A stretch of DNA of 64,000 nucleotides. It comes from Tardiphaga robiniae. GTDB taxonomy: Bacteria > Pseudomonadota > Alphaproteobacteria > Rhizobiales > Xanthobacteraceae. A model generated the notes under the pieces. That model saw nothing but the letters and a program-made list of their open reading frames with translations, searched no databases and was not told where the DNA came from. The stretch is from positions 186,001-250,000 of the forward strand of contig NZ_LVYV01000053.1 in the NCBI RefSeq assembly GCF_001618955.1, read 5' to 3'. The position numbers were made by a program, and so were the translations under genes. This document shows positions 6,501-42,442 of the stretch, piece after piece. How positions within the stretch are numbered: position 1 is the first letter of the stretch; every line of letters starts with the position of its first letter.

Positions 6501-7088
6501 CAGCGAGCACCCGATAGTCCAGGCATCATTTCGCGTGCGGTCCACCCGTGACTGTCGTCGTGACGACAGTCACCGTTAGGCGGGCAGAGAAAGATGGCGA
6601 CGCCTCAGATCCTGAACGGCGGGCTTTGTTGGTCGCGCGGCAGAACAGAGTGAGCGAGGGCTTCGCGCGACTGTCTCCGACGTAGAATAGACTCGTTTGT
6701 AAATCGTGTTCGAGAACGATTGCTTATCGCACAACATCACCAGCGAATTGTCGCATTCGAGTCCTTTTGATTTGTGAACCGTGCTGGGGCTTCGGGGAGC
6801 TGGTTGGGGGCGTGAACGAGCGATGGCGTGAACCTCTGCGCAAGTCCACGCGGCAACCGCCCTGTTAAATCTATCGTTCCACCGTCAAAGGATACGGCGA
6901 AATTCGTTCTCCGGCGCCGGATCAGCGCGGCCCTTTCTCCGCGTCGGACATCAACGGCCTTTTGGGCCGCCTGGCACTGGGATACTGGGGCCGTGGTCGT
7001 CTTTGGACAAAGCGCGCACAGAGGCGGAGCGTGACTACGAGGCGAAGAACGGCACCCCGTTTGATCCAAGTGAACCGGAAGAAGAAAA
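6501..7088. other. non-coding or decayed stretch
   Basis: About 590 bases without a credible intact gene. Apart from the palindrome at 6548-6573, the only recognisable item is on the minus strand at 6949-7027, where a short frame ends in GPSIPVPGGPKGR and a stop. That ending resembles the C terminus of the small exported protein at 7895-8161 (WRYQGGPKGR), and the matching DNA segments are 6949-6974 and 7893-7918. It may be a relic of a duplicated gene. The rest looks like decayed sequence leading into the MFS remnant. Confidence 0.4.
6548..6573. repeat. 12-bp perfect inverted repeat
   Basis: GTGACTGTCGTC and GACGACAGTCAC are separated by two bases, 48 bases downstream of the RcnR-like gene. 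No T-run follows on either side, so it is not a standard intrinsic terminator. It may stop or stabilise the transcript, or it may be a protein-binding palindrome. Confidence 0.6.
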
Positions 7089-7721
7089 CGTCGCCAGCGC
7101 AAGGTTCGCTCGCCCCTCAGCATCGCGGAACTCAGGCGGTTGGGGCCGACCTTCTGGTGGGTCACAGTCGTCGCCACGGTATTCACGCTTGCGCGATTCA
7201 GCGAGGCATTTCTGATCCTGAAGGCGCAAGCAGTCGGACTTCCGGTCTTTCTCATCCCCCTGGTGCTGGTGGTGATGAACATTGCCTATGCGGTCATCTC
7301 GTATCCGGTGGGAGCTCTTTCGGATCGCATGGAACGCACGACTTTGCTGATCATCGGCTTTGCGCTGCTGATCGCGGCGGACCATGTTCTCGGGTTTGCG
7401 ACCGGCCTGTTCGGCGTCGTGGTTGGCGTGATCCTGTGGGGCGCGCATATGGGATTTACGCAAGGATTACTCGCCGCCTTGATTGCCGACAGCGCGCCAG
7501 CCGAATTGCGTGGGACCGCGTAAGGCGTTTTCAACCTGTTTGGTGGCGTTGCCCTGCTCGCTGCGAGTGTGGTGGCCGGTGCACTTTGGGATGCCGTTGG
7601 CTCACGCGGCACTTTCCTTGTGGGTGCATCCATCACAGCGCTCGCACTCGCCGGGCTGGTCACGATCCGGCATCGCCTGCAGCCTCAAAGCGGGGCTACC
7701 GTCGTGTGCGCCGACCCCTGA
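7089..7721 (+). pseudogene. remnant of an MFS transporter, C-terminal half with an in-frame stop
   Basis: The frame reads RSPLSIAELRRLGPTFWWVT and continues through several membrane helices, typical of the second half of an MFS protein beginning at helix 7. At 7521-7523 a TAA interrupts the usual RGTAYGVFNL motif exactly where the Tyr codon should be (RGTA-stop-GVFNLFGG). The same frame then continues with plausible helices to a stop at 7719-7721. The N-terminal half is absent upstream. Both the truncation and the nonsense codon indicate a dead gene, probably a relic of an earlier transporter in this resistance region. Confidence 0.75.
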
Positions 7722-7796
7722 GATTTTCTCGAGACCAAAGGAGGCAAGGCGAGCGTCACAACCATCGCGAAGACGAGATACGACGACGGAAGGGAC

Positions 7797-7883
7797 ATGC
7801 CGATCATCGCGGCGGCGGCACCGGCGCTATCCTCCGTGACCCTGGTGAGCAAGGCTCTGAGGCTGCGGGCAGTCCGCCTGTAG
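7797..7883 (+). pseudogene. C-terminal remnant of a copper-type P1B ATPase
   Basis: The 28 codons MPIIAAAAPALSSVTLVSKA LRLRAVRL and a stop match the last residues of the intact copper ATPase at 25528-27990 ([28 protein letters not shown]). Nothing upstream resembles the rest of the ATPase. This is the tail of a deleted gene, and it marks a past rearrangement next to the MFS remnant. Confidence 0.7.
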
Positions 7884-7894
7884 CGGCGCCCCCA

Positions 7895-8161
7895 TCAACG
7901 GCCTTTCGGGCCGCCCTGATAGCGCCAGGATGATGGAACGCGGTCCGCGCTCGGCTCTTCCTGCGCACTGGACCGTGCGCCGCCATAGGCGAAAGCGGAA
8001 CTCAGATCAGGCTGCGTGGCGACGATACGGGATTGAGTGCTCCGCCGTGCTTCATTCGGCCAGTAGCTCTTGTCCGAGATCGTTGAGCCTGCGTGCGCTA
8101 CGGCGGATATCGCAGCGAGCGGCAGCAAGAGTGAAATCGTAAGGATGCTTTTCTTCAACAT
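7895..8161 (-). CDS. small exported protein of unknown function, probable ECF sigma target
   Basis: An 88-residue protein with a clear signal peptide: MLKKS, a hydrophobic stretch of about 15 residues, then AVAHAGS with likely cleavage after AHA. The mature part is about 64 residues, polar and without Cys (SYWPNEARRSTQSRIVATQP to WRYQGGPKGR). No family is recognised. A GTAACC-N16-CGAA promoter lies 54-79 bases upstream of its start and is the same as the one before the ECF sigma gene. It therefore probably belongs to that sigma factor's regulon. Confidence 0.7.
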   Translation of the reverse strand: MLKKSILTISLLLPLAAISAVAHAGSTISDKSYWPNEARRSTQSRIVATQPDLSSAFAYGGARSSAQEEPSADRVPSSWRYQGGPKGR

Positions 8162-8214
8162 TGTCGAACTCCATTATGTGATCAAAGCGCTTCGAATGCG
8201 CTTCTGATAATGAG

Positions 8215-8240
8215 TTCGGAGCTGATGCTCTGCCGGTTAC
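8215..8240 (-). promoter_or_regulatory. SigF-type ECF promoter upstream of the small exported protein
   Basis: Read on the minus strand, GTAACC (8240-8235) is followed after exactly 16 bases by CGAA (8218-8215). This is the consensus of the Caulobacter ECF factor SigF. The copy before the sigma gene has the same spacing, and both extend to CGAACTC. Confidence 0.75.
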
Positions 8241-8269
8241 AGGCTCACGGTGACGTGAAGAATGACGTA

Positions 8270-8911
8270 TTACCAACGCAACAGCCGCGGTCCCAATGCC
8301 GCGCCTGCGAGGGTGCACAGCGCAATCGTGCCGCCATACCACACCGCGACAAACGGCAATGAATCGTCCGTGCAATGAAGAGCGTACGCCATCGCGCTCA
8401 CCCCGCCTGCAACGAGGCCCGCGACGGCCCCCGTTCGTGCGAGATCTGTCGGCGCTCCTCTTCGCACCGCCCAGATGGAGATCGCGAAAGGAACGATCGC
8501 AATGATCGGAACGGAGAGAAGGCATTCCAGCCATTCGTCTCCGAGAATCATCGTGTCCCAGTGCGACCGGGGCGCAAGCCCAAGGCTTATCGCGGCAAGC
8601 GCGATGATGGCCAGGAACGGTAACGCGACTAGGAAGGGCTGCGTCCTTCGTTCGCCGCCCGGGCGCACTAGCTTCGTCAGATAGACCAACGCCAGACCGA
8701 CGATTCCTACCGTGAAAGCGAGCTTCACGAAGAGGAAGGTCAATGCACGTTCCTCCATCAAATCGGCGCGAACGCCGAACACTACGCATGCGATGACCAG
8801 CGCCGCAATCCCGCTTGCCGCACCGGCCAAGCTCAGCGTGCGAACGAGCGTGGTGCGGGCGACCGGCTTTGCGTCGATGCTTAGCATTTCCACCAATTCG
8901 TCGGTTTTCAT
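8270..8911 (-). CDS. nrsF: NrsF (DUF1109) family membrane anti-sigma factor
   Basis: An integral membrane protein of 213 residues with about six helices beginning near residue 25, after a short cytoplasmic head (MKTDELVEMLSIDAKPVART). This is the size and layout of the DUF1109/NrsF family, which binds and inhibits SigF-type ECF sigma factors. The family's conserved cysteines in membrane segments or loops (WLECLLSV, ALHCTDD) are thought to sense metal or oxidative stress. Its start overlaps the stop of the sigma gene by four bases (ATGA), so the two are translationally coupled. In Caulobacter the pair responds to chromate and cadmium stress, which suits this neighbourhood. Confidence 0.88.
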   Translation of the reverse strand: MKTDELVEMLSIDAKPVARTTLVRTLSLAGAASGIAALVIACVVFGVRADLMEERALTFLFVKLAFTVGIVGLALVYLTKLVRPGGERRTQPFLVALPFLAIIALAAISLGLAPRSHWDTMILGDEWLECLLSVPIIAIVPFAISIWAVRRGAPTDLARTGAVAGLVAGGVSAMAYALHCTDDSLPFVAVWYGGTIALCTLAGAALGPRLLRW

Positions 8912-9465
8912 GCCCGCGTCTCCTTAGCGATCAGGGCCGCCAGCGTTTTCAGGCCACGGTGAATGTTCACCTTGACCCCAGACTCCGATATGCCGCATCG
9001 TTCCGCGGCCTCGGCAACACTCTGCCCGTCCAATTTCACAGCCACGATGGAGCATCGCGTCTTCTCAGGCAGCCGTTGCATGAGCCGTTTGAGATCGAAG
9101 CTGCTCTCGGCGCTGAGATTGTCGTCGTGTGCCATGACCTCGTCCGCTTCGTCGATCGGAACGTCGGTCAGCGAAGTGCGGTTCCTTCGCAGGAAGTCGA
9201 TCAACTTGTATCGGGCGATCGCGTGCACCCACGGCGTCAGCGGCTCGAGGGGATCATAGGTGTGCCTCTTGAAGTGGACCGCCAATACCGCCTCCTGGAC
9301 CAGATCCTCCGCCTCCGCAGCCCCCCTCCCTATTCTGGCGAGCTTGCCCTTGTAGTAAGCGCGTAAATGCCGACTCAACCGATCGAGCAGGACGCGGTGC
9401 GAGGCCGCGTCGCCGTTGAGGCTAGCCAACATAAGAACTTTGAGCTCGATTTCGGGGCTCGTCAT
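8908..9465 (-). CDS. sigF: ECF RNA polymerase sigma factor (SigF-like, NrsF partner)
   Basis: Sigma factor of 185 residues with region 2 at about residues 20-95 (AEAEDLVQEAVLAVHFKR, WVHAIARYKLIDFLRR) and region 4 at about 125-180 (LPEKTRCSIVAVKLDGQSVA, GISESGVKVNIHRGLKTL). Its own promoter at 9486-9511 matches the SigF consensus, so positive autoregulation is likely. The downstream gene encodes its anti-sigma factor, and the next one has the same promoter type. It would be held at the membrane by NrsF and released under metal or redox stress. The SigF name rests on partner and promoter match; no alignment was run. Confidence 0.9.
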   Translation of the reverse strand: MTSPEIELKVLMLASLNGDAASHRVLLDRLSRHLRAYYKGKLARIGRGAAEAEDLVQEAVLAVHFKRHTYDPLEPLTPWVHAIARYKLIDFLRRNRTSLTDVPIDEADEVMAHDDNLSAESSFDLKRLMQRLPEKTRCSIVAVKLDGQSVAEAAERCGISESGVKVNIHRGLKTLAALIAKETRA

Positions 9466-9485
9466 GAGCGCGCCTTCATCATGAG

Positions 9486-9511
9486 TTCGCAGCGCCGACG
9501 GTTCCGGTTAC
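9486..9511 (-). promoter_or_regulatory. SigF-type ECF promoter upstream of the sigma gene
   Basis: On the minus strand, GTAACC (9511-9506), 16 bases, then CGAA (9489-9486), about 20 bases before the sigma start codon. It is identical in boxes and spacing to the promoter at 8215-8240. The expected transcript has a short leader. Confidence 0.78.
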
Positions 9512-9580: not shown

Positions 9581-12500
9581 TCATTCTGCTGCCTGCGAGC
9601 GGTGCAATTCGTCCACTCCCGTACCATCATGCAGGGCTTCCGGAACCTCGGCGCCCGGGCCACGGGGCAGCCTGAATCCCTTGATCAAGGCATAGACGGC
9701 CGGGATCACGATGAGCGTCAGGATGGTCGACGAGATCATGCCGCCGATCATCGGCACCGCGATGCGCTGCATGACCTCCGACCCGGTTCCAGTGCTCCAC
9801 AAGATCGGGATCAGGCCTGCCATGATGGCGACGACGGTCATCATTTTTGGGCGAACCCGCTCAACCGCGCCCAGCATGATCGCGGCATTCAGGTCGGAAC
9901 GCGTGAACGGTTTGCCTTCCGCGGCCCGCGCGGCCTGAATCTCCTTCATCGCATGATCGAGATAGATCAGCATGATGACGCCGGTCTCCGCAGCGACTCC
10001 GGCCAGCGCGATAAAGCCGACGGCGACGGCGACGGAGAAATTGAAGCCGAGCCACCACATCAGCCACAGTCCGCCGACGAGGGCGAATGGCAGCGACAGC
10101 ATCACGATCAGGGTCTCGGTCAACCGGCGGAAATTCAAATAGAGCAGCAGGAAGATGATCAGCAGCGTGACGGGCACCACGATCTTCAGCCGCGCCGTCG
10201 CACGCTCCAGATACTCAAACTGGCCGCTCCAGACGACGTAGTTTCCGGGCGGAAACTGGACGCTGGCGGCCACGGCCGCCTTGGCATCGGCGACGTAGCC
10301 GCCGAGATCGCGGTCGCGGATATCGACGAAGATGTAGACCGCGAGCTGACCATTTTCGGTCCGGATCGATGTGGGTCCACGCGTCAGTTTGATCGCGGCG
10401 ACTTCGCCCAGGGGAACGGTCCCTCCGCCCGGCATCGCCACCAATACGTCGCGGGCGATCGACTGCGGATCGCTGCGCAGATCGCGCGGATATCGCAGAT
10501 TGACGCCATAACGCTCGCGGCCTTCCACGGTGGTGGTGATGGTTTCGCCGCCCAAGGCGGACGACACTGTGTCCTGCACATCGCTGATCATGAGGCCGTA
10601 TCGCGCAAGCGCTTCACGATCGGGCACGACGTCGAGGTAGTAGCCGCCGATGACGCGTTCGGCATAGGCGCTCGACGTGCCCGGAACCGCCTTCACGACG
10701 GTCTCGATCTGCCGTGCGAGTTTTTCCATTTCAACGAGATCGGTGCCGAGAACCTTGATTCCGACCGGTGTGCGAATCCCGGTCGCAAGCATGTCGGTGC
10801 GAGCCTTGATCGGCATGGTCCAGGCATTGGAGACGCCAGGAAACTGCAAAGCTTTATCCAGTTCGGCAATGAGACCATCGACGGTCAGACCAGGACGCCA
10901 TTGCTCCTTCGGCTTGAGATTGACGATCGTCTCGAACATCTCGGTCGGAGCCGGATCTGTCGCGGTCTCGGCCCGGCCTGCCTTGCCATAGACCGAAGCC
11001 ACTTCCGGAAACGTCTTGATGATCTTGTTCTGGGTCTGCAGGATTTCCGCCGCCTTGGTCACCGAGAGACCCGGCAACGTCGTCGGCATGTACATCAGCG
11101 TGCCCTCGTTCAGGCTCGGCATGAATTCTGTCCCGAGCTGCCGCGCTGGCCAGAGGCTTACCGCCAAAGCCACGAGCGCCAGAACGATTGTCAGAGTCTT
11201 GGCCTTCAGCACGCCGCGGATCAGCGGACGGTACACCCAGATCAGGAAACGATTAATCGGGTTCTTGTGCTCCGGAACGATCTTGCCGCGCACGAACAGC
11301 ACCATGAGCGCCGGAACCAACGTGATCGAGAGGATCGCCGCCGCCGCCATAGAGAACGTCTTGGTGAATGCGAGTGGGCTGAACAGACGCCCTTCCTGGG
11401 ATTCCATGGTGAAGATCGGCAGGAACGACACCGTGATGATCAGCAGGCTGAAAAACAAGGCGGGCCCGACTTCGCTCGCCGCCTCGATGAGCACTTCAAG
11501 GCGCGGCTTGTCGGGTGGCGCCCGTTCGAGATGCTTGTGAGCATTCTCGATCATGACGATGGCGCCGTCGATCATGGCGCCGATCGCAATCGCAATTCCC
11601 CCGAGGCTCATGATGTTCGAGCCGATACCAAGCACCTTCATGGCGCCGAACGCCATCAGGATCCCGACCGGCAGCATGACGATGGCGACGAGCGCGCTGC
11701 GCACGTGCAGCAGGAACACGATGCAGACGAGCGCGACGACGATGCTTTCCTCCGTGAGGGTCCGCTTCAGCGTCTCGATCGCGCTATGGATCAGGTTGGA
11801 GCGATCGTAGACCGGTATGATCTCGACGCCCTTCGGCAGCGCCGACGCCATTTCCGCCAGGCGCGCCTTCACGTTGTCGATGACATCCAGCGCGTTCTGC
11901 CCAAAGCGTTGCAAGGCGATGCCGCTGGCGACCTCGCCTTCCCCGTTAAGTTCGGTGATGCCGCGTCGCTCGTCCGGACCGAGTTCGACCCGCGCCACGT
12001 CCTTCAGCAGCACCGGTGTACCCTTATCGACCTTCAGCACGATGTTGGAGAGATCGGAGAGGCTTTTGACGTAGCCCCTGCCCCGCACGACGAATTCGAA
12101 CTCCGAGAGTTCGACGGTGCGTCCGCCAACGTCCATGTTGCTACCACGGACCGCATCGCGCACCTTCGCGAGCGGGATGCCGAGCGACCTTAAACGGTTC
12201 GGATCGACGACAATGTTATATTGCTTGACGAAGCCGCCGACGCTGGCCACCTCCGCGACGCCCTCCGCCTTGGAAATGCCGTAGCGGATGGTCCAGTCCT
12301 GGATGGATCGCAGGTCGGCCAGCGACTTATCCTTGGACTGCAATGCGTACTGATAGACCCAGCCGACGCCTGTGGCATCGGGTCCCAATGTCGGCGTCAC
12401 GCCAGCGGGAAGCTTGCGCGCCGCAGCGTTGAGGTATTCGAGAACACGCGAGCGCGCCCAGTAGATGTCTGTGCCGTCCTCGAAGATGATGTAGACAAAC

Positions 12501-12772
12501 GAGACACCGAAGAACGAGAACCCACGGACTACCTTCGACTTCGGCACCGTTAGCATGGCCGTCGTCAGCGGATAGGTGACCTGGTCCTCGATGACCTGCG
12601 GCGCCTGGCCTTTGTATTCGGTATAGACGATCACCTGGGTGTCGGAGAGGTCGGGGATCGCGTCGAGCGCCGAGTGTTGCAGGGCGTAAATGCCGCCGGC
12701 TACGGCGAAGACCGTGCCGATCAGGACCAGCATCAGGTTGCGGGCCGACCAGTCGATGAGGCGCGCGATCAT
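9581..12772 (-). CDS. cusA: CusA-type copper/silver RND efflux permease
   Basis: Full-length inner-membrane pump of 1,063 residues that drives Cu(I)/Ag(I) out of the periplasm using the proton gradient. The three methionines of the E. coli CusA metal site (573, 623, 672) correspond by constant offset to Met562, Met612 and Met661 here. Asp402 in AIGAMIDGAIVMIEN is the proton-relay aspartate. The N-terminal part has LDAIPDLSDTQVIV and the C-terminal part the usual second set of helices, ending in a cytoplasmic tail. The start overlaps the cusB stop (12769-12772). It is the last gene of a cusC-cusB-cusA run. The conserved Met triad makes copper/silver more likely than zinc or cobalt. Confidence 0.95.
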   Translation of the reverse strand: MIARLIDWSARNLMLVLIGTVFAVAGGIYALQHSALDAIPDLSDTQVIVYTEYKGQAPQVIEDQVTYPLTTAMLTVPKSKVVRGFSFFGVSFVYIIFEDGTDIYWARSRVLEYLNAAARKLPAGVTPTLGPDATGVGWVYQYALQSKDKSLADLRSIQDWTIRYGISKAEGVAEVASVGGFVKQYNIVVDPNRLRSLGIPLAKVRDAVRGSNMDVGGRTVELSEFEFVVRGRGYVKSLSDLSNIVLKVDKGTPVLLKDVARVELGPDERRGITELNGEGEVASGIALQRFGQNALDVIDNVKARLAEMASALPKGVEIIPVYDRSNLIHSAIETLKRTLTEESIVVALVCIVFLLHVRSALVAIVMLPVGILMAFGAMKVLGIGSNIMSLGGIAIAIGAMIDGAIVMIENAHKHLERAPPDKPRLEVLIEAASEVGPALFFSLLIITVSFLPIFTMESQEGRLFSPLAFTKTFSMAAAAILSITLVPALMVLFVRGKIVPEHKNPINRFLIWVYRPLIRGVLKAKTLTIVLALVALAVSLWPARQLGTEFMPSLNEGTLMYMPTTLPGLSVTKAAEILQTQNKIIKTFPEVASVYGKAGRAETATDPAPTEMFETIVNLKPKEQWRPGLTVDGLIAELDKALQFPGVSNAWTMPIKARTDMLATGIRTPVGIKVLGTDLVEMEKLARQIETVVKAVPGTSSAYAERVIGGYYLDVVPDREALARYGLMISDVQDTVSSALGGETITTTVEGRERYGVNLRYPRDLRSDPQSIARDVLVAMPGGGTVPLGEVAAIKLTRGPTSIRTENGQLAVYIFVDIRDRDLGGYVADAKAAVAASVQFPPGNYVVWSGQFEYLERATARLKIVVPVTLLIIFLLLYLNFRRLTETLIVMLSLPFALVGGLWLMWWLGFNFSVAVAVGFIALAGVAAETGVIMLIYLDHAMKEIQAARAAEGKPFTRSDLNAAIMLGAVERVRPKMMTVVAIMAGLIPILWSTGTGSEVMQRIAVPMIGGMISSTILTLIVIPAVYALIKGFRLPRGPGAEVPEALHDGTGVDELHRSQAAE

Positions 12773-14202
12773 TGCGGTTTCTCCCCGGTATCGAGGCCCT
12801 TGAGCGCGGCCTTCAGGTTGCTCTCGGCATCGATCAGGAAGTTTGCGGAGACGACGACTTTTTCGTTTTCGGCAAGACCCTCCTTGATCTCAATCCACCC
12901 CCCACCTCGGCGCCCCAGCTTCACGGGGCGCGGTTCGAACCGGCCATCGCCCTTGTCGAGAAGGACGAGCTGTCGCTCGCCGCTGTCGAGGACGGCGCTG
13001 CTGGACACGGTCACGACAGGAGCTTCCGTCCCCGTGGCGATTTCGACGTCCGCATACATGTCCGGCCGCAGCACCTCGTCCGGATTAGGAAGTTCAATCC
13101 TGATCCGCGCGGTACGCGTTTCTGCCTTAAGGTGTGGATAGATGACAGTGACCTTGCCGATGAAGGGGCGATCGGGATAGGCGCGCGGACGCACGGTGAC
13201 CTTTTGCCCGACTTCGATGAGTGCCAGATCGCGTTCGGCGACATCGACCATCACCCAGACCACGTTATGATCGGCAATCCGGAACAGAACCTCGCCCGGT
13301 GCTGCTCGCATGCCGTTAACCGCAGTACGTTCCACGATCTCGCCATCTTGCGGTGCAGGCCAGATGACATAGACCGGCACCTCGCGCGCACGCTCTATGT
13401 CAGCAATAAACGTTTCCGGCGCACCGAGGTTCTCAAGACGACGACGCGCGCCTTTCAATGCTTGAATTGGAAGTGCACCGGTCGCCCGCCCATCGAGTGC
13501 TGACAAATATTCAGCGGCGGCGCTTGACAGGTTTGGACCATAAATCCGCATCAACGGCTGGCCCTTGTGAACATGAGTGCCGGTGGTGACGTTCTCGACG
13601 GTGTCGATGAAACCTTCGAATCGCAGCGACACCACCGATTTGCGGCGCTCGTCTTCTTCAACCGTGCCGGGCGCCCGAACCATCGTGTTCAAGGTGCGGA
13701 GCTCCGCTACCTCGGTCTGAACGCCTGCTTTCTGAAGCTTGCCAGCACTGACTTTGACGGACGAGTCATCATCCTGCTCGCCCTCATAGACAGGGAGATA
13801 GTCCATCCCCATGGAATCTTTCTTCGGGGTCGGCGATGTATCCGGAAGGCCCATCGGATTGCGGTAGAAGCGGATGCGCCCCGGCTGACCGCCTTTCGCA
13901 GTCATGGTCTCGGGAGCCTTCTCCTCGAAGCTCACGTCTTCGCTGCTTCTGATGGCTAGATATTCCCTGCCGGAGGCTGTCTTCTTGGGTGCAGGGGAAT
14001 AGTTCGGTGCACCGTCCGGATCACGGTAGTAGACGATCGGTTCCGTCGCTGCCGGCTGGGCGGGACTTGGATCTGCCGTTGCAGGAAAGATGGCGGAAAA
14101 CCATCCGGGAAGCGGACCGTTCGACCGTCCGACGGCCACTCCCGCCACTCCGGCAACCAGGACTGCGGACACGATCAATAGAGCACTTACAGGACGTCTC
14201 AT
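12769..14202 (-). CDS. cusB: CusB-type periplasmic adaptor with two heavy-metal-binding motifs
   Basis: Adaptor of 477 residues. After an N-terminal membrane segment (about 5-25) come two copies of the short heavy-metal-binding fold: YYRDPDGAPNYSPAPKK at about 58-74 and RFYRNPMGLPDTSPTPKK to MGMDYLPVYE at about 110-139. The second copy keeps the Met-rich MGMDYLP signature seen in CusB/SilB relatives. Then follow the adaptor domains (GFIDTVENVTTGTHVHKGQP, YGPNLSSAAAEYL, LRPDMYADVEIATG). It takes metal from periplasmic chaperones and passes it to CusA. It overlaps both neighbours by four bases, consistent with tight coupling in the operon. Confidence 0.94.
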   Translation of the reverse strand: MRRPVSALLIVSAVLVAGVAGVAVGRSNGPLPGWFSAIFPATADPSPAQPAATEPIVYYRDPDGAPNYSPAPKKTASGREYLAIRSSEDVSFEEKAPETMTAKGGQPGRIRFYRNPMGLPDTSPTPKKDSMGMDYLPVYEGEQDDDSSVKVSAGKLQKAGVQTEVAELRTLNTMVRAPGTVEEDERRKSVVSLRFEGFIDTVENVTTGTHVHKGQPLMRIYGPNLSSAAAEYLSALDGRATGALPIQALKGARRRLENLGAPETFIADIERAREVPVYVIWPAPQDGEIVERTAVNGMRAAPGEVLFRIADHNVVWVMVDVAERDLALIEVGQKVTVRPRAYPDRPFIGKVTVIYPHLKAETRTARIRIELPNPDEVLRPDMYADVEIATGTEAPVVTVSSSAVLDSGERQLVLLDKGDGRFEPRPVKLGRRGGGWIEIKEGLAENEKVVVSANFLIDAESNLKAALKGLDTGEKPQ

Positions 14203-15443
14203 AGCGAGCCTCCCGCCAGACGTTCCATGTCGGCGTATTTGGTTTGCAATTCCACCTTGAGCTTCAGTAAGTCGAGCTGGATCGCCCGATACCTTCGCTC
14301 CGACTCGAAGACCGACGAGAGATCGGACGAGCCTGCCTGGAAACCATTGCGGGCGTTGTCGATCGAGGAGCGAGCTGGGGGCAACAGGCGCGACGTGTAG
14401 ATCTGCACGACCTTGCGCAGCGCATCGACGCCGAACCAGGCGTCGGCGATCTGCCCGTCAATCCGCAGCCGCAGCGCTTCGTTGCGGGCTTGCGCGGCGC
14501 CGAGGCGCGCTCCTGCCGCACGCTGCTCGGCGTCCTTGACCTCATAGTGCAGCGGCAGCTTGACGCCGAGCGTGAACTCGCCGGTATCCTCGGTGCCGGG
14601 CCGCTGCACGTATTTTGCGCCGACATTCACGTCGGGATAGTAGTTGAGGTCGGTGAGCGATTTGATCTGGGCCGCGGAATTGCTTTGCGCCCCGGCCAGA
14701 GCCAGCATCGGGTTTGCCGATCGTCCGAGAGCCTGGGCTTGCGCGAGGCTGACGGGCCTGACCGTCCGGAAGCCGGTCGGCGCCGCCAACGGGGCCAGCG
14801 CAGGACGCCCGATCAGTGCATTGAGCCGCGCTGCGGCGGACTTCTGTTCGCCCTGCCGCCGGACGACGTCGCCCTCCGCGGTGGCAGCTTCCATCTCGGC
14901 CTTGATGACGTCCTGCCGGTCGACCGATGTCGTGCCGTACCGCGATCGCAGCAGACCGAGCAACTCGTCATATCGCCGTTTGATCTCGGTCGCTATCCCG
15001 ACAGCTTCATAGGCGGCATTGTATTCGCCATGTGCGGCAACGACCTGCGCGATGAGTTCGGTCACGGTCGCGCGCCCCTGGAATTTTGCGGCGTCCGCGT
15101 CCGACTGCGCGATATTGCGTTCGAGGCCGTATTTGCCCCAGAGCTTGATCTCCTGGTCGAAGCCGATGCGGCGCTGTCCGACGCCCTGCCGGTTGACGTC
15201 CCAAGCCTCCAGAATGAGGGTCGGGTCGGCCATGACGCCCGCCGTTCCGACCTTGCGGACCGCGGCGTCGAAGTCGAGCGAGGCGGCAGCCACCGTCGGA
15301 TTGAGACGTTTGGCGATTGCGACGACGCTCTCCACCGTCGCTCCAGGCATAGTTTGCTCGGCAGCCGCCACAGGATGCGACCACAGTAATGCTGTGGCCG
15401 CTCCGATGGCTACAAACCGCATGATTACCGCCGGGCGGATCAC
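14199..15443 (-). CDS. cusC: CusC-type outer-membrane efflux channel (TolC superfamily)
   Basis: Outer-membrane channel subunit of 414 residues with a signal peptide (hydrophobic stretch, cleavage near VAAAEQT) and no lipobox. It has two OEP repeats with long amphipathic helices (SLDFDAAVRKVGTAGV, QSDADAAKFQGRATVTELIAQ, AAGARLGAAQARNEALRLRI, SSDLSSVFESERRYRAIQLDL). It completes the CusCBA tripartite pump. It overlaps the upstream FixH-like gene and downstream cusB by four bases each. Classical CusC is lipidated, whereas this one seems not to be. Confidence 0.92.
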   Translation of the reverse strand: MIRPAVIMRFVAIGAATALLWSHPVAAAEQTMPGATVESVVAIAKRLNPTVAAASLDFDAAVRKVGTAGVMADPTLILEAWDVNRQGVGQRRIGFDQEIKLWGKYGLERNIAQSDADAAKFQGRATVTELIAQVVAAHGEYNAAYEAVGIATEIKRRYDELLGLLRSRYGTTSVDRQDVIKAEMEAATAEGDVVRRQGEQKSAAARLNALIGRPALAPLAAPTGFRTVRPVSLAQAQALGRSANPMLALAGAQSNSAAQIKSLTDLNYYPDVNVGAKYVQRPGTEDTGEFTLGVKLPLHYEVKDAEQRAAGARLGAAQARNEALRLRIDGQIADAWFGVDALRKVVQIYTSRLLPPARSSIDNARNGFQAGSSDLSSVFESERRYRAIQLDLLKLKVELQTKYADMERLAGGSL

Positions 15444-15844
15444 GGCGTGGCCTTGAGGATGAGCTTGTTTTCGACCGTCCCGGTCTCGCCCTGGACCTTG
15501 GCGCCCAAGGACAGTTGCCAGCCGCCTTCCATCGTCACGGCGGCCTTGAACTTGTAGACGCCGGGTTCGGTGCTCGGCATCGCGTCGATCGTGGTCTTCA
15601 TCGACTCCATGCCGTCCGGCGCCATGTCCAGCCTCTTGGCGAAGATCACGGCGTCGGAGACCGGTTTTCCGTCCGGCTTATGGACAAGGCGCACTGAAAT
15701 GACCACCTCGCCTTTCTTCACGGTTTTGTCGACGAGCTGGAATTCGTAGTCCTTGATGTCGGCGCGAGCGGCTGTTGCCGAAGCGATCATGGCAACGCCG
15801 ATGAGCACGGCCCGGAGGGCGCGCGCGCAAGTGTAGCTCTTCAT
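15440..15844 (-). CDS. periplasmic FixH/YtkA-like protein of the copper operon
   Basis: A 134-residue exported protein starting at MKSYTCARALRAVLIG (15844); upstream in-frame codons are not protein-like. After the signal peptide (cleavage near ARA) there is a single immunoglobulin-like beta domain (YEFQLVDKTVKKGEVVISVR, LDMAPDGMESMKTTI, PGVYKFKAAVTMEGGWQLSL) typical of FixH/YtkA-like proteins. Such proteins are frequent beside cusCBA genes, and their role in metal handling is not established. It overlaps cusC by four bases, so it belongs to the same transcript. Confidence 0.82.
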   Translation of the reverse strand: MKSYTCARALRAVLIGVAMIASATAARADIKDYEFQLVDKTVKKGEVVISVRLVHKPDGKPVSDAVIFAKRLDMAPDGMESMKTTIDAMPSTEPGVYKFKAAVTMEGGWQLSLGAKVQGETGTVENKLILKATP

Positions 15845-15944
15845 TTTGAAATCCTCGATGTCCTGATGTACCGCGCAGGGCGGCATGCATGTTCATCCGC
15901 ACGGCTTTAGGCCGATGCGGCAGCAGACGGCGTGGTGACGCCGA

Positions 15945-39433: not shown

Positions 39434-39955
39434 ATGAAAAGGTGCGACAACCTTGTGGATGCGGGCCGCCGCCGGTTCTTGAGCGGCGCCGGCGCTGCGA
39501 CAGCCGCGGTGGCGGTGACGTCGCTGGTCGCCTCCAAGGCTGAGGCCGACACTCCTTCGGCTCTCGTCAAATATCCAGCCAACCGCTTGGCGAACGTCAA
39601 AGATCTCAAGCTCAACGAACCGCTCGACGTCGCTTACCCCGACGAAAATGCGCCCGGCGTTCTGCTGAAGATCGGCCAGCGCGTCCAGGGCGGCGTCGGC
39701 CCCGACGGCGACATCGTCGGCTTCACGACGCTCTGTCCCCACAAGGGCTACCCGCTCACATTCAACGGCGCCGACAAGACGATGAACTGTCCTGGCCACT
39801 ACTCACGCTTCGACTGTGAAAAGGGCGGCCAGCAGGTCTGGGGGCACGCAACCCAGAACCTGCCGCAGTACGCACTCCGCGTCGACGAGAAAGGCGACGT
39901 CTACGCGGAAGGCGTGGACGAACTGATCTACGGCCGTCTTTCGAACACCCTCTGA
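39434..39955 (+). CDS. aioB: AioB, arsenite oxidase Rieske small subunit
   Basis: A 173-residue exported Rieske protein. The Tat signal is DAGRRRFLSGAG followed by a hydrophobic stretch. The [2Fe-2S] ligands are Cys101 and His103 (LCPHKGY) and Cys119 and His122 (NCPGHYS). The residue that forms a disulfide cysteine in bc1 Rieske proteins is Tyr106 here, as in arsenite oxidases lacking that bridge. It passes electrons from the molybdenum subunit to a periplasmic acceptor and carries the large subunit through the Tat pathway. It is 12 bases before aioA. Confidence 0.95.
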   Translation: MKRCDNLVDAGRRRFLSGAGAATAAVAVTSLVASKAEADTPSALVKYPANRLANVKDLKLNEPLDVAYPDENAPGVLLKIGQRVQGGVGPDGDIVGFTTLCPHKGYPLTFNGADKTMNCPGHYSRFDCEKGGQQVWGHATQNLPQYALRVDEKGDVYAEGVDELIYGRLSNTL

Positions 39956-39967
39956 AGGAGAGCAGAC

Positions 39968-42442
39968 ATGAGCTACAAGCGCCAGATCGGCCGCCTGCCC
40001 ATCATTCCCGCCGACGCCAAGGAACACAACGTTGTCTGCCACTACTGCATCGTGGGGTGCGGCTATAAGGCCTATTCCTGGGACGCCCGGTACGAAGGCG
40101 GGAGCAAACCCGACCAGAACAAATTCGGCGTCGATCTTTCAAAGCAGCAGGAGGCCGACACGCCAGCGTGGTATTCGCCGTCGATGTACAATGTCGTCAA
40201 GCAGGACGGCCGGGACGTGCATATCGTCATCAAGCCCGACAAGGAGTGCGTCGTAAATTCCGGACTCGGCTCGGCGCGTGGCTCCCGGATCGCCGAGATG
40301 AGCCATTCCCGCCAACGCAATACCCAGCTCCAACGACTGACGGATCCGCTTGTCTGGCGCTACGGTCAAATGCAGCCCACCAGTTGGGATGATGCGCTTG
40401 ATCTGGTCGCGCGCGTCACCGCCGCGGTGATCGCCGATCAAGGCGAGGACGGCCTGATCGTATCGGCGTTCGATCATGGCGGCGCCGGTGGCGGCTATGA
40501 AAACACTTGGGGGACCGGCAAGCTCTACTTCGGCGCGATGAAGGTCAAGAACATCCGCATCCACAACCGGCCTGCGTACAATTCGGAGGTTCACGGCTCC
40601 CGTGACATGGGTGTCGGCGAACTCAACAATTGCTACGAAGACGCCGAACTCGCCGACACCATTCTCGCGGTCGGAACGAACGCTCTCGAAACCCAGACGA
40701 ACTACTTCCTGAATCACTGGGTGCCCAACCTGCGCGGCACCTCTATCGACAAGAAGAAAGCTGAGTTCGGAACGGAGCCCGTGGACAAGGCACGTATCGT
40801 GATTGTCGATCCGCGGCGGACCGTGACCGTCAACGCGTGCGAGGTCGAGGCTGGCAAGGACAACGTGCTGCATCTGGCGATCAACTCCGGCACGGACCTC
40901 ATCCTGTTCAACGCCTGGCTTACCTACGCCGTCGACAAGGGCTGGATCGACAAGCCTTTCATCGCCGCGTCCACGAAGGACTTCGACAAAGCCATTGCAG
41001 CCAACAAGGTCTCGGTGGCCGATGCCGCCAAAACCACCGGCCTCAGCGAGGCAGAGATCATCAAGGCGATCACATGGATGGCGGAACCAAAGGCTGGGGG
41101 CGCCCGACGCCGTACCATGTTTGCCTATGAGAAGGGGCTGATCTGGGGCAACGACAATTACCGGACCAACCAGTCGCTGGTGAACCTCGCGCTGGCGACC
41201 GGCAATATCGGCCGCCCCGGCGGCGGCTGTGTCCGGATGGGCGGCCACCAAGAGGGCTATTCCAGACCCTCGGACGCCCATGTGGGCAAGCCCGCCGTGT
41301 ATGTCGATCAGTTGCTGATCAATGGCAAGGGAGGTGTCCATCACATCTGGGGGTGCGACCACTACAAGACGACCCTGAACGCGATGGAATTCAAGCGGGT
41401 CTACAAAAAACGCACCGACATCGTGAAGGATGCGATGAATGCCGTTCCTTACGGAGACCGCCCGGCCATGGTGAAGGCGATTGCCGATGCCATCAAAAAC
41501 GGCGGTTTGTTCGCGGTCGATGTTGATATCGTCCCGACGAAGATTGGCGAGGCATGTCATGTGATGCTGCCCGCCGCGACGTCAGGCGAAATGAACCTGA
41601 CCTCGATGAATGGTGAGCGCCGTATGAGGCTCACGGAGCGCTACATGGACCCGCCGGGCAACGCCGTGCCGGACTGCCTGATCGCGGCGCGCATCGCCAA
41701 CAACATGGAGCGCGTGTGGCGCGAATTGGGTAAGAGCGACATCGCCGACAAGTTCAAGGGCTTCGACTGGAAGACAGAAGAAGACGCCTTCATGGACGGC
41801 TATGCCAAGAACGAAAAGGGCGGCGAGTTTGTAACCTACGCGCGACTGCGGGCCATGGGCACTAACGGCTTCCAGGAACCCGCCGTGCGCGTGGATTCAA
41901 GCGACGGGAAAGAAAAGATCGTCGGAACAAAGCGCCTTTTTGCAGATGGCAAGTTCAACTCGAAGGACGGGAAAGCCACGTTCGCTTCGGCTCAGTGGCG
42001 CGGACTTCAGGCTTCCGGAAAGCAGGCCGAGAAGGACAAGTTCGCCTTCCTGATCAACAACGGACGCGCGAACCTTATCTGGCAGAGCGCCTATCTGGAC
42101 AAGGAAAATGAATTCGTGATGGACCGCTGGCCATATCCATTCATCGAAATGAACCCTCAAGACATGTCGGATCTCAAGCTCAAGAACGGAGACCTGGTGG
42201 AAGTGTTCAACGACAACGGCTCGACCCAGGCAATGGCCTATCCGACCCCAACTGCCAAGCGGAAGCAGGCCTTCATGCTATTCGGATTTCCGACCGGCGT
42301 CCAAGGTAACGTGGTGTCGAAGGGCGTGAACGAACTCGTTATTCCAAACTACAAGCAGACCTGGGGCAACATCCGGAAGATCTCGGATGCTCCGGAAGGA
42401 GTCCGGCATCTGACGTTCAAGTCGAAGGAGTATTCGGTCTGA
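39968..42442 (+). CDS. aioA: AioA, arsenite oxidase molybdopterin large subunit
   Basis: An 824-residue catalytic subunit of the DMSO-reductase superfamily that oxidises As(III) to As(V) at a bis-MGD molybdenum centre. The [3Fe-4S] ligands are Cys24, Cys27 and Cys31 (VVCHYCIVGCGYKAYSWD), in the spacing found in arsenite oxidase. Other family regions are GSARGSRIAEMSHSRQRNTQ, AFDHGGAGGGYENTWGTGKL and GRPGGGCVRMGGHQEGYSRP. It has no signal of its own and would be co-exported with AioB. Full length for the family. A strong hairpin terminator follows directly. Confidence 0.97.
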   Translation: MSYKRQIGRLPIIPADAKEHNVVCHYCIVGCGYKAYSWDARYEGGSKPDQNKFGVDLSKQQEADTPAWYSPSMYNVVKQDGRDVHIVIKPDKECVVNSGLGSARGSRIAEMSHSRQRNTQLQRLTDPLVWRYGQMQPTSWDDALDLVARVTAAVIADQGEDGLIVSAFDHGGAGGGYENTWGTGKLYFGAMKVKNIRIHNRPAYNSEVHGSRDMGVGELNNCYEDAELADTILAVGTNALETQTNYFLNHWVPNLRGTSIDKKKAEFGTEPVDKARIVIVDPRRTVTVNACEVEAGKDNVLHLAINSGTDLILFNAWLTYAVDKGWIDKPFIAASTKDFDKAIAANKVSVADAAKTTGLSEAEIIKAITWMAEPKAGGARRRTMFAYEKGLIWGNDNYRTNQSLVNLALATGNIGRPGGGCVRMGGHQEGYSRPSDAHVGKPAVYVDQLLINGKGGVHHIWGCDHYKTTLNAMEFKRVYKKRTDIVKDAMNAVPYGDRPAMVKAIADAIKNGGLFAVDVDIVPTKIGEACHVMLPAATSGEMNLTSMNGERRMRLTERYMDPPGNAVPDCLIAARIANNMERVWRELGKSDIADKFKGFDWKTEEDAFMDGYAKNEKGGEFVTYARLRAMGTNGFQEPAVRVDSSDGKEKIVGTKRLFADGKFNSKDGKATFASAQWRGLQASGKQAEKDKFAFLINNGRANLIWQSAYLDKENEFVMDRWPYPFIEMNPQDMSDLKLKNGDLVEVFNDNGSTQAMAYPTPTAKRKQAFMLFGFPTGVQGNVVSKGVNELVIPNYKQTWGNIRKISDAPEGVRHLTFKSKEYSV

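Follow-up and report, generated by a model that had tools for sequence, protein, structure and literature searches.

Why should a gene for an 88-residue exported protein carry the same kind of promoter as the ECF sigma factor gene beside it, and what is its product for? The question is raised by a locus of Tardiphaga robiniae, in a stretch of 64,000 nucleotides that we call the window (contig NZ_LVYV01000053.1, positions 186,001 to 250,000). Here a sigma factor gene, sigF, is followed by nrsF, for a membrane anti-sigma factor, and then by the small gene (Table 1). A first-pass annotation had described identical SigF-type promoters, GTAACC-N16-CGAA, before sigF and before the small gene, and had proposed that the small protein belongs to the sigma factor's regulon and that the unit is a metal or redox stress module within a resistance region. 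We call the small protein and its relatives YWP, a family name coined in this analysis.

The sigma factor and its anti-sigma factor

The assignment of the sigma factor to the ECF type stands, and can be made more specific: it is of the ECF16, or SigF, type with an NrsF anti-sigma factor, and promoters of the kind found here have been mapped for the ECF16 group. Window SigF has regions 2 and 4 only. The adjoining nrsF gene overlaps sigF, and its product scores 222.5 bits against PF06532 (cut-off 26.8). NrsF has two cysteines, Cys130 and Cys180, which correspond in position to Caulobacter C131 and C181 and to OsrA C129 and C179. A putative autoregulatory promoter, tGTAACc-N16-CGAA, recognized by sequence match and conservation, precedes sigF. 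Against the Caulobacter-type NrsF equivalog, NF042994, window NrsF reaches 105.7 bits, below the cut-off of 300.

Table 1. Features of the sigF unit and neighbouring genes (window positions)
Feature	Position	Strand	Remarks
Small exported protein (YWP), 88 aa	7895..8161	-	signal peptide 1-24; N-terminal motif GSTISDKSYWPNEA; C-terminal WRYQGGPKGR
Leader stem-loop, near predicted 5' end of small-protein mRNA	8181..8208	-	47 aligned leaders
SigF-type promoter of small exported protein gene	8215..8240	-	GTAACCGGCAGAGCATCAGCTCCGAA; in 108-base gap after nrsF
nrsF, membrane anti-sigma factor, 213 aa	8270..8911	-	PF06532, 6.3e-66
sigF, ECF sigma factor, 185 aa	8908..9465	-	Sigma70_r2, Sigma70_r4_2; NF009191 above cut-off
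SigF-type promoter of sigF (GTAACC-N16-CGAA)	9486..9511	-	GTAACCGGAACCGTCGGCGCTGCGAA; conserved before sigF in relatives
CusA/CzcA-family RND efflux pump gene	9581..12772	-	directly upstream of sigF; TIGR00914 above cut-off
CusB-like adaptor gene	12769..14202	-	passes the RND adaptor model; the CusB model matches best but falls under its cut-off
TolC-family outer membrane protein gene (CusC position)	14199..15443	-	best match TolC-family model, below its cut-off
YtkA-like exported protein gene	15440..15886	-	PF13115

Which described system is the closest relative? One of the genomes compared, G391, is Bradyrhizobium diazoefficiens USDA110, because its features match EcfS, EcfF and OsrA as far as the published account describes them (PMC3420878): two genes for NrsF lie on its plus strand, one of the products having cysteines at 129 and 179 together with a methionine cluster, and its pair of ECF16 sigma factors share 35% identity. 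The window sigma factor, anti-sigma factor and small protein are 79%, 64% and 57% identical to EcfS, TmrS and their small protein, and the pair is nearer to EcfS/TmrS than to EcfF/OsrA (79% versus 37% for the sigma factor, 64% versus 37% for the anti-sigma factor). Judged by identity, gene order and promoters, the window unit is orthologous to EcfS-TmrS (Blr4928-Blr4929, ECF16), which shares both promoters and has a small exported protein encoded behind the anti-sigma gene. The two units differ in that the Cus genes lie downstream in USDA110 and upstream of sigF in the window. Soybean symbiosis is reported to depend critically on EcfS (PMC3420878). The EcfS-TmrS and ECF16 literature covered by our search, outside which the original EcfS study falls, gives in the parts available no inducer, no description of the small gene, and no statement of the target through which EcfS serves symbiosis.

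The twin promoters

Both promoter sites lie exactly where they had been placed, on the minus strand. Are they identical? The two elements and the spacing are, and agreement extends further than had been claimed, to CCTGTAACCGG-N14-CGAACTCAT; the 14 spacer bases differ. In the window GTAACC-N16-CGAA is matched twice where 0.08 matches are expected, and two or more matches arose in 1 of 100 shuffles. The genome scan that the first-pass annotation had suggested gave no enrichment of this bare pattern, with 6 sites in 6.36 Mb against 13 for the reversed control, and the four sites elsewhere all lie inside open frames of at least 202 aa. As proof of a regulon the bare pattern is accordingly rejected, and because it is rarer than its reversed control we give weight only to a tighter motif and to conservation.

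The tighter motif, TGTAACC-N16-CGAACT, occurs exactly twice in the 6.36-Mb genome, both times at the sigF unit, and its reversed control does not occur. With one mismatch allowed there are 5 sites against 7 in the control, the three extra ones all within open frames of at least 202 aa, and a form with variable spacing, GTAAC-N15/16-CGAA, is found 39 times against 163, far less often than its control. When the window was scored with a matrix trained on relatives' sites, the window itself being left out, both sites reached 27.0 and the next best in the 64 kb 14.2; the matrix found no additional SigF site in the window, for example before the cus genes or opgC. In USDA110, TGTAACC-N16-CGAAC is present exactly twice in 9.1 Mb (control 0), once before ecfS and once before the small gene behind tmrS, and a 13-base form with one mismatch adds two sites. 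The second window promoter has 53 bases between its -10 element and the ATG of the small gene, which is preceded by GGAG.

How widely is this arrangement kept? A profile of nine YWP proteins finds matches in 64 of 391 family genomes and 10 of 47 genera, and a protein scan of the genome contigs gave 52 loci, nearly all from Bradyrhizobium, Afipia, Tardiphaga or relatives. We counted the 49 loci that have distinct upstream sequence and were fetched by protein sequence, taking as a site GTAAC-N15-17-CGA[AC] within 260 bases upstream of the small gene. Such a site is present in 44 of them; the other five (L039, L073, L078, L080 and L081) score 8-9, the random level. The proposal that the small exported protein belongs to the regulon is borne out to this extent, and its regulation by SigF, a prediction from sequence, is strongly supported. 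The genes sigF and nrsF lie directly upstream on the same strand in 37 loci, all of which have the small-gene site and 32 of which also have a site before sigF, and in 492 kb of YWP loci the tight motif appears 74 times and the reversed motif never. A count that includes loci fetched by site, in which 62 of 72 GGPK proteins have one, is partly circular and is set aside in favour of the protein-fetched loci. Three loci from other fetches that have no exact site (L008, L089, L103) have one that matches at 12 of 13 bases. Among the protein-fetched loci, L067, L069, L079 and L082 have a variant site, GTAACT or GTAACG, with no sigF nearby. On plasmid pBBta01 of Bradyrhizobium sp. BTAi1 (L036) the nrsF frame is interrupted and the YWP promoter is intact. 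A match to the three letters YWP downstream of nrsF in L204 lies in a chance frame and was dropped.

Could the second motif nevertheless be accidental, or the frame at 7895-8161 be no real gene? The bare pattern is common enough genome-wide to arise by chance; against this, the protein is conserved across the family genomes just counted and shows the codon pattern of purifying selection, and promoter, spacing, leader and ribosome site are all conserved. The upstream sites of the protein-fetched loci refute an accident for practical purposes, and we find it scarcely credible.

Over 296 family genomes, a hand count finds the tight motif at 127 sites, spread over 46 genomes, and its reversed control at 23. 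In 14 of these 46 there are only two sites, 1,262-1,279 bases apart, which is the spacing of the sigF-YWP unit. The regulon is larger in other relatives, where cusB-, YtkA-, CusF-, OpgC-, methyltransferase- and cytochrome-like genes are preceded by sites, as are further small exported proteins that end in a YxGGPK tail, the gene names having been assigned by eye except where homologues of window genes were profile-tested. One genome, G230, has an expanded SigF regulon: eight tight SigF-type sites lie on four contigs (L174-L177), several of them before other small exported proteins.

The interval between promoter and gene has a conserved element of its own. Behind the promoter, 47 distinct leaders align on GAAGCGC...GCGCTTC, with 95.7% of cells paired and changes on both sides in three of the seven pairs; the score for pairing and covariation was reached by 4 of 500 shuffles, and slid versions of the alignment pair at 37-60%. 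The case for the hairpin is made by these 47 leaders, since the window leader by itself folds no better than its shuffles (z -1.28, not significant). Rfam has no match to it. The stem may instead be an operator palindrome that works in the DNA. The ecfF transcription start has been mapped about 6 bases after the -10 element (PMC3420878), and with a start so placed the mRNA of the small gene would open with the hairpin.

The small exported protein

What kind of protein is YWP? The 88-residue protein scores below the cut-off of every Pfam and NCBIfam family, and YWP is an undescribed family of exported proteins with an entry in neither collection. The mature window protein consists of the two terminal motifs of Table 1 joined by a variable linker; across the family the conserved motifs are GSTI-DK-YWPNEA at the mature N-terminus and YxGGPK at the C-terminus. 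In 33 sequences A24, at the end of the signal peptide, T27, I28, YWP and YxGGP are invariant, and in 59 sequences the stretch between the end motifs varies from 31 to 55 residues. Within the motifs the divergence by codon position is 0.128/0.053/0.470, a pattern that argues for a real protein under purifying selection. AlphaFold2, given 33 sequences, found no fold (mean pLDDT 56.8, pTM 0.12), and we read the mature protein as probably disordered, a result that a failed prediction would resemble. A peptide of this build, disordered and with a fixed motif at either end, would suit binding better than catalysis or metal chelation.

Might YWP nonetheless be a sacrificial or chelating peptide, in the manner of the copper-binding bufferins or of methionine-rich MrpX of other SigF/NrsF systems? 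Small exported or membrane proteins do occur in other ECF16 regulons, such as the DUF2282 proteins of Caulobacter, mrpX lies beside sigF/nrsF in perchlorate reducers, and an EcfF-type site in USDA110 precedes a methionine-rich exported protein (see below). However, Cys, Met and His are all absent from the mature window protein, which therefore lacks both the conserved cysteines of a bufferin and the methionines of an MrpX-type peptide; and though at least one of the three residues is present in 40 of 59 relatives, none forms a conserved column. Nor does the whole genome contain a match to the MNIO enzyme family, PF05114, for which the Caulobacter control was positive, and on this ground a bufferin-type output of window SigF is rejected. 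A chelating or sacrificial role in general strikes us as improbable.

Several further observations concern YWP-like sequences. A tail of the form CxYxGGPKxxx(W/R)xC is present in 10 of 72 proteins, relatives in other lineages, and absent from the window protein. A 23-base direct repeat (window 6949-6971 and 7893-7915, 95.7% identity) reproduces the end of the small-gene coding sequence, GGPKGR plus stop on the minus strand, 0.94 kb away; the copy at 6949-6971 is perhaps the end of a decayed second YWP gene. Small exported proteins with repeated HHYxGGPK...PHHM units, found near SigF-type sites or YWP genes in L178, L187 and L040, are rich in His and Met and possibly bind metal, and the one tested has no family above the Pfam or NCBIfam cut-offs. 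Behind the YWP unit of L023, at 6917-8032, there are a Met-rich small protein and an NrsF-like gene, whose product is 39% identical to window NrsF, with no adjacent sigma gene.

Neighbouring genes and the signal

What would the unit respond to? The earlier proposal that it answers metal or redox stress is plausible. Genes of the Cus type (CusA/CusB) stand before sigF in 34 of 40 loci, and after the unit in USDA110 and in L071/L074. The Cus genes beside sigF favour a metal-linked envelope signal, and a copper-linked one is likely. YtkA-like genes, identified by eye, have a SigF-type site in L074, L185 and L186. Caulobacter SigF is reported to answer chromate and cadmium, and the available account describes its gene as without strong autoregulation and as dispensable for survival of Cr or Cd (PMC3511200); a sinorhizobial ECF16 system is reported, in the part of the source at hand, to give no response to H2O2, Cd or chromate (PMC6180224). 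As to the surrounding resistance region, frames at 39434-42442 on the plus strand look by eye like the small and large subunits of arsenite oxidase, so that the region would also cover arsenic. On the other side of the small gene, at 7140-7720 on the plus strand, is the remnant of an MFS-type transporter gene which, as read from its frame, has an in-frame stop at 7521-7523 and no intact 5' part.

Does YWP, then, serve as a small partner to the CusCBA pump or to another copper-handling envelope protein encoded next to it? The linkage just described speaks for this, as do the sites before cusB-, CusF- and YtkA-like genes elsewhere. But the linkage may reflect no more than a shared mobile island, and the window's mature protein contains neither Cys nor Met nor His, and no metal ligands can be recognized in it. 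We hold such a role to be possible and put it forward tentatively.

A second SigF-NrsF system

The genome has a second SigF-NrsF pair, on contig C55 (G000:C55:11436-12662), with GTAACA-N15-CGAA before its sigma gene. At 77% and 61% identity this pair is the orthologue of EcfF/OsrA. The EcfF-OsrA system of B. japonicum (ECF16) resembles the window unit in architecture and cysteine positions, and differs from it in a Met-rich periplasmic loop, a 15-base promoter spacing and targets that include methionine sulfoxide reductases. The redox-type system, EcfF/OsrA, is this other locus, distinct from the window unit.

Do these differences hold beyond the two genomes? Among EcfF/OsrA-type systems, the Met-rich loop precedes the first cysteine in all 13 NrsF proteins examined, and all 13 sigF promoters are of the GTAACA-N15 form, in which the six-base element stands 15 bases from CGAA or CGTA. 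Among EcfS-type systems with a YWP gene and a detectable sigF promoter, all 38 have a loop ending in WLEC and a 16-base spacing; left out of the 38 are L036 and L097, where NrsF is interrupted or divergent, duplicate rows for L052 and L107, and L050, L051, L053, L059, L064 and L103, where no sigF promoter was found. As a universal rule the association of sensor class with spacing is rejected, since distant NrsF genes break it: eight of nine such genes (L197, L214, L215, L218 and L220-L224) come with a sigF site, which in six cases departs from the spacing pattern, while L219 has the 15-base spacing without a Met-rich loop. In USDA110 an 84-aa Met-rich exported protein is preceded by an EcfF-type site where bsr4431 is expected to lie, the gene number being deduced from position; bsr4431 is listed among EcfF-dependent genes (PMC3420878).

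Could the sigma factor of contig C55 be the main user of the twin sites? It belongs to the same ECF group, and deletion of osrA in B. japonicum raised ecfS 3.8-fold (PMC3420878), which may hint at cross-talk and at incomplete insulation of EcfS from EcfF. Set against this are the promoter and loop differences, without exception in the 13 and the 38 systems, and sigma proteins only 34-37% identical between the types where orthologues share 77-79%. We judge that use of the twin sites mainly by the C55 sigma factor is most improbable.

A model for the unit

We think it probable that the unit is an autoregulated ECF16 switch with, by promoter motif, one other target, the exported and partner-binding YWP peptide. 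The sequence features of the proteins, the orthology to EcfS-TmrS, the promoter conservation and the two-site distribution of the motif are the contribution of the present analysis; the anti-sigma mechanism, the role of the cysteines and the autoregulation are taken from work on relatives, cysteine-controlled sigma release and mapped promoters having been reported for Caulobacter SigF and B. japonicum EcfF (PMC3511200, PMC3420878). NrsF, in the inner membrane, would hold SigF until an envelope signal acts through Cys130 and Cys180 and frees it; we infer that copper, or some other metal or oxidant that reacts with thiols, is the most likely signal. Free SigF would act at the promoter of the sigF-nrsF operon, giving both amplification and a built-in shut-off, and at the promoter of the gene right after nrsF, whose transcript would begin with a short stem-loop and encode a protein exported by Sec, with about 64 residues in its mature form. 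The regulatory part of this scheme, that is the hold by NrsF, the cysteine-dependent release, the autoregulation and the activation of the neighbouring gene, is likely, given family knowledge and conservation. For YWP itself we suggest a periplasmic peptide that binds a partner, probably the adjacent envelope metal-stress machinery, and is neither an enzyme nor a metal chelator.

An alternative is that YWP acts on the periplasmic loops of NrsF and tunes or shuts off the switch. CpxP acts back on Cpx in like manner. The small gene sits directly behind nrsF in the 37 complete units, the peptide appears disordered with two conserved end motifs, and the window genome and USDA110 have no other tight site, so that regulation itself may be the purpose of YWP. 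In some loci, however, YWP relatives occur with no nrsF in the flanking sequence that was fetched (L039, L067, L069, L073, L078, L079), and feedback of this kind seems to us rather doubtful.

If we return to the switch with an exported, partner-binding output, how private might it be? If the promoter evidence is right, the strict EcfS regulon is EcfS itself and one small exported protein. In the boldest form, which we offer as a speculation with some chance of being right, the direct targets of the sigma factor would be only its own operon and one disordered, two-ended peptide whose mRNA has a hairpin of its own. The twin ECF16 systems would be insulated by a one-base difference in spacing, each matched to its sensor loop and peptide type: Met-rich loop, Met-rich peptide and Msr in one, HW...GDxWLEC loop and YWP peptide in the other. 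The reported need for EcfS in soybean symbiosis would then run through the YWP peptide alone. Two co-resident SigF/NrsF systems, each with its own matched set of sensor loop, promoter spacing and peptide output, would also be a case of natural insulation between paralogous sigma factors.

Comparison with known systems

How does the unit compare with systems already described? The gigPABT-rpoQ-rsqA region of Cupriavidus metallidurans likewise has an ECF sigma factor and a membrane anti-sigma factor beside the gene of a small putative periplasmic protein; it differs in that its operon is divergent and made up of other genes. Copper and gold induce the gig genes next to rpoQ, and for control of gig by RpoQ the authors, in the part of their report available, had no direct evidence (PMC10304878). 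The SigF/NrsF-MrpX system of perchlorate reducers, as described, also has a small periplasmic peptide as its output (PMC4623255), but MrpX is methionine-rich and works with YedYZ, whereas the window protein has no Met after its signal peptide. Caulobacter crescentus SigF-NrsF (ECF16) is reported to have a small regulon, with small proteins of the DUF2282 type among its members (PMC3511200). Its targets, DUF2282-DUF692-DUF2063-DoxX operons of the bufferin type and YedY, set it apart from the window unit, in whose genome no DUF692-family enzyme was found; like the window unit it has a sigma factor with a six-helix NrsF, two key cysteines and a GTAACC-type promoter (PMC3511200). The arrangement of sigma and anti-sigma factor is itself of the already known ECF16 kind, and what is new here is that an ECF16 system of the EcfS type has a small exported protein dedicated to it, from a family not described before.
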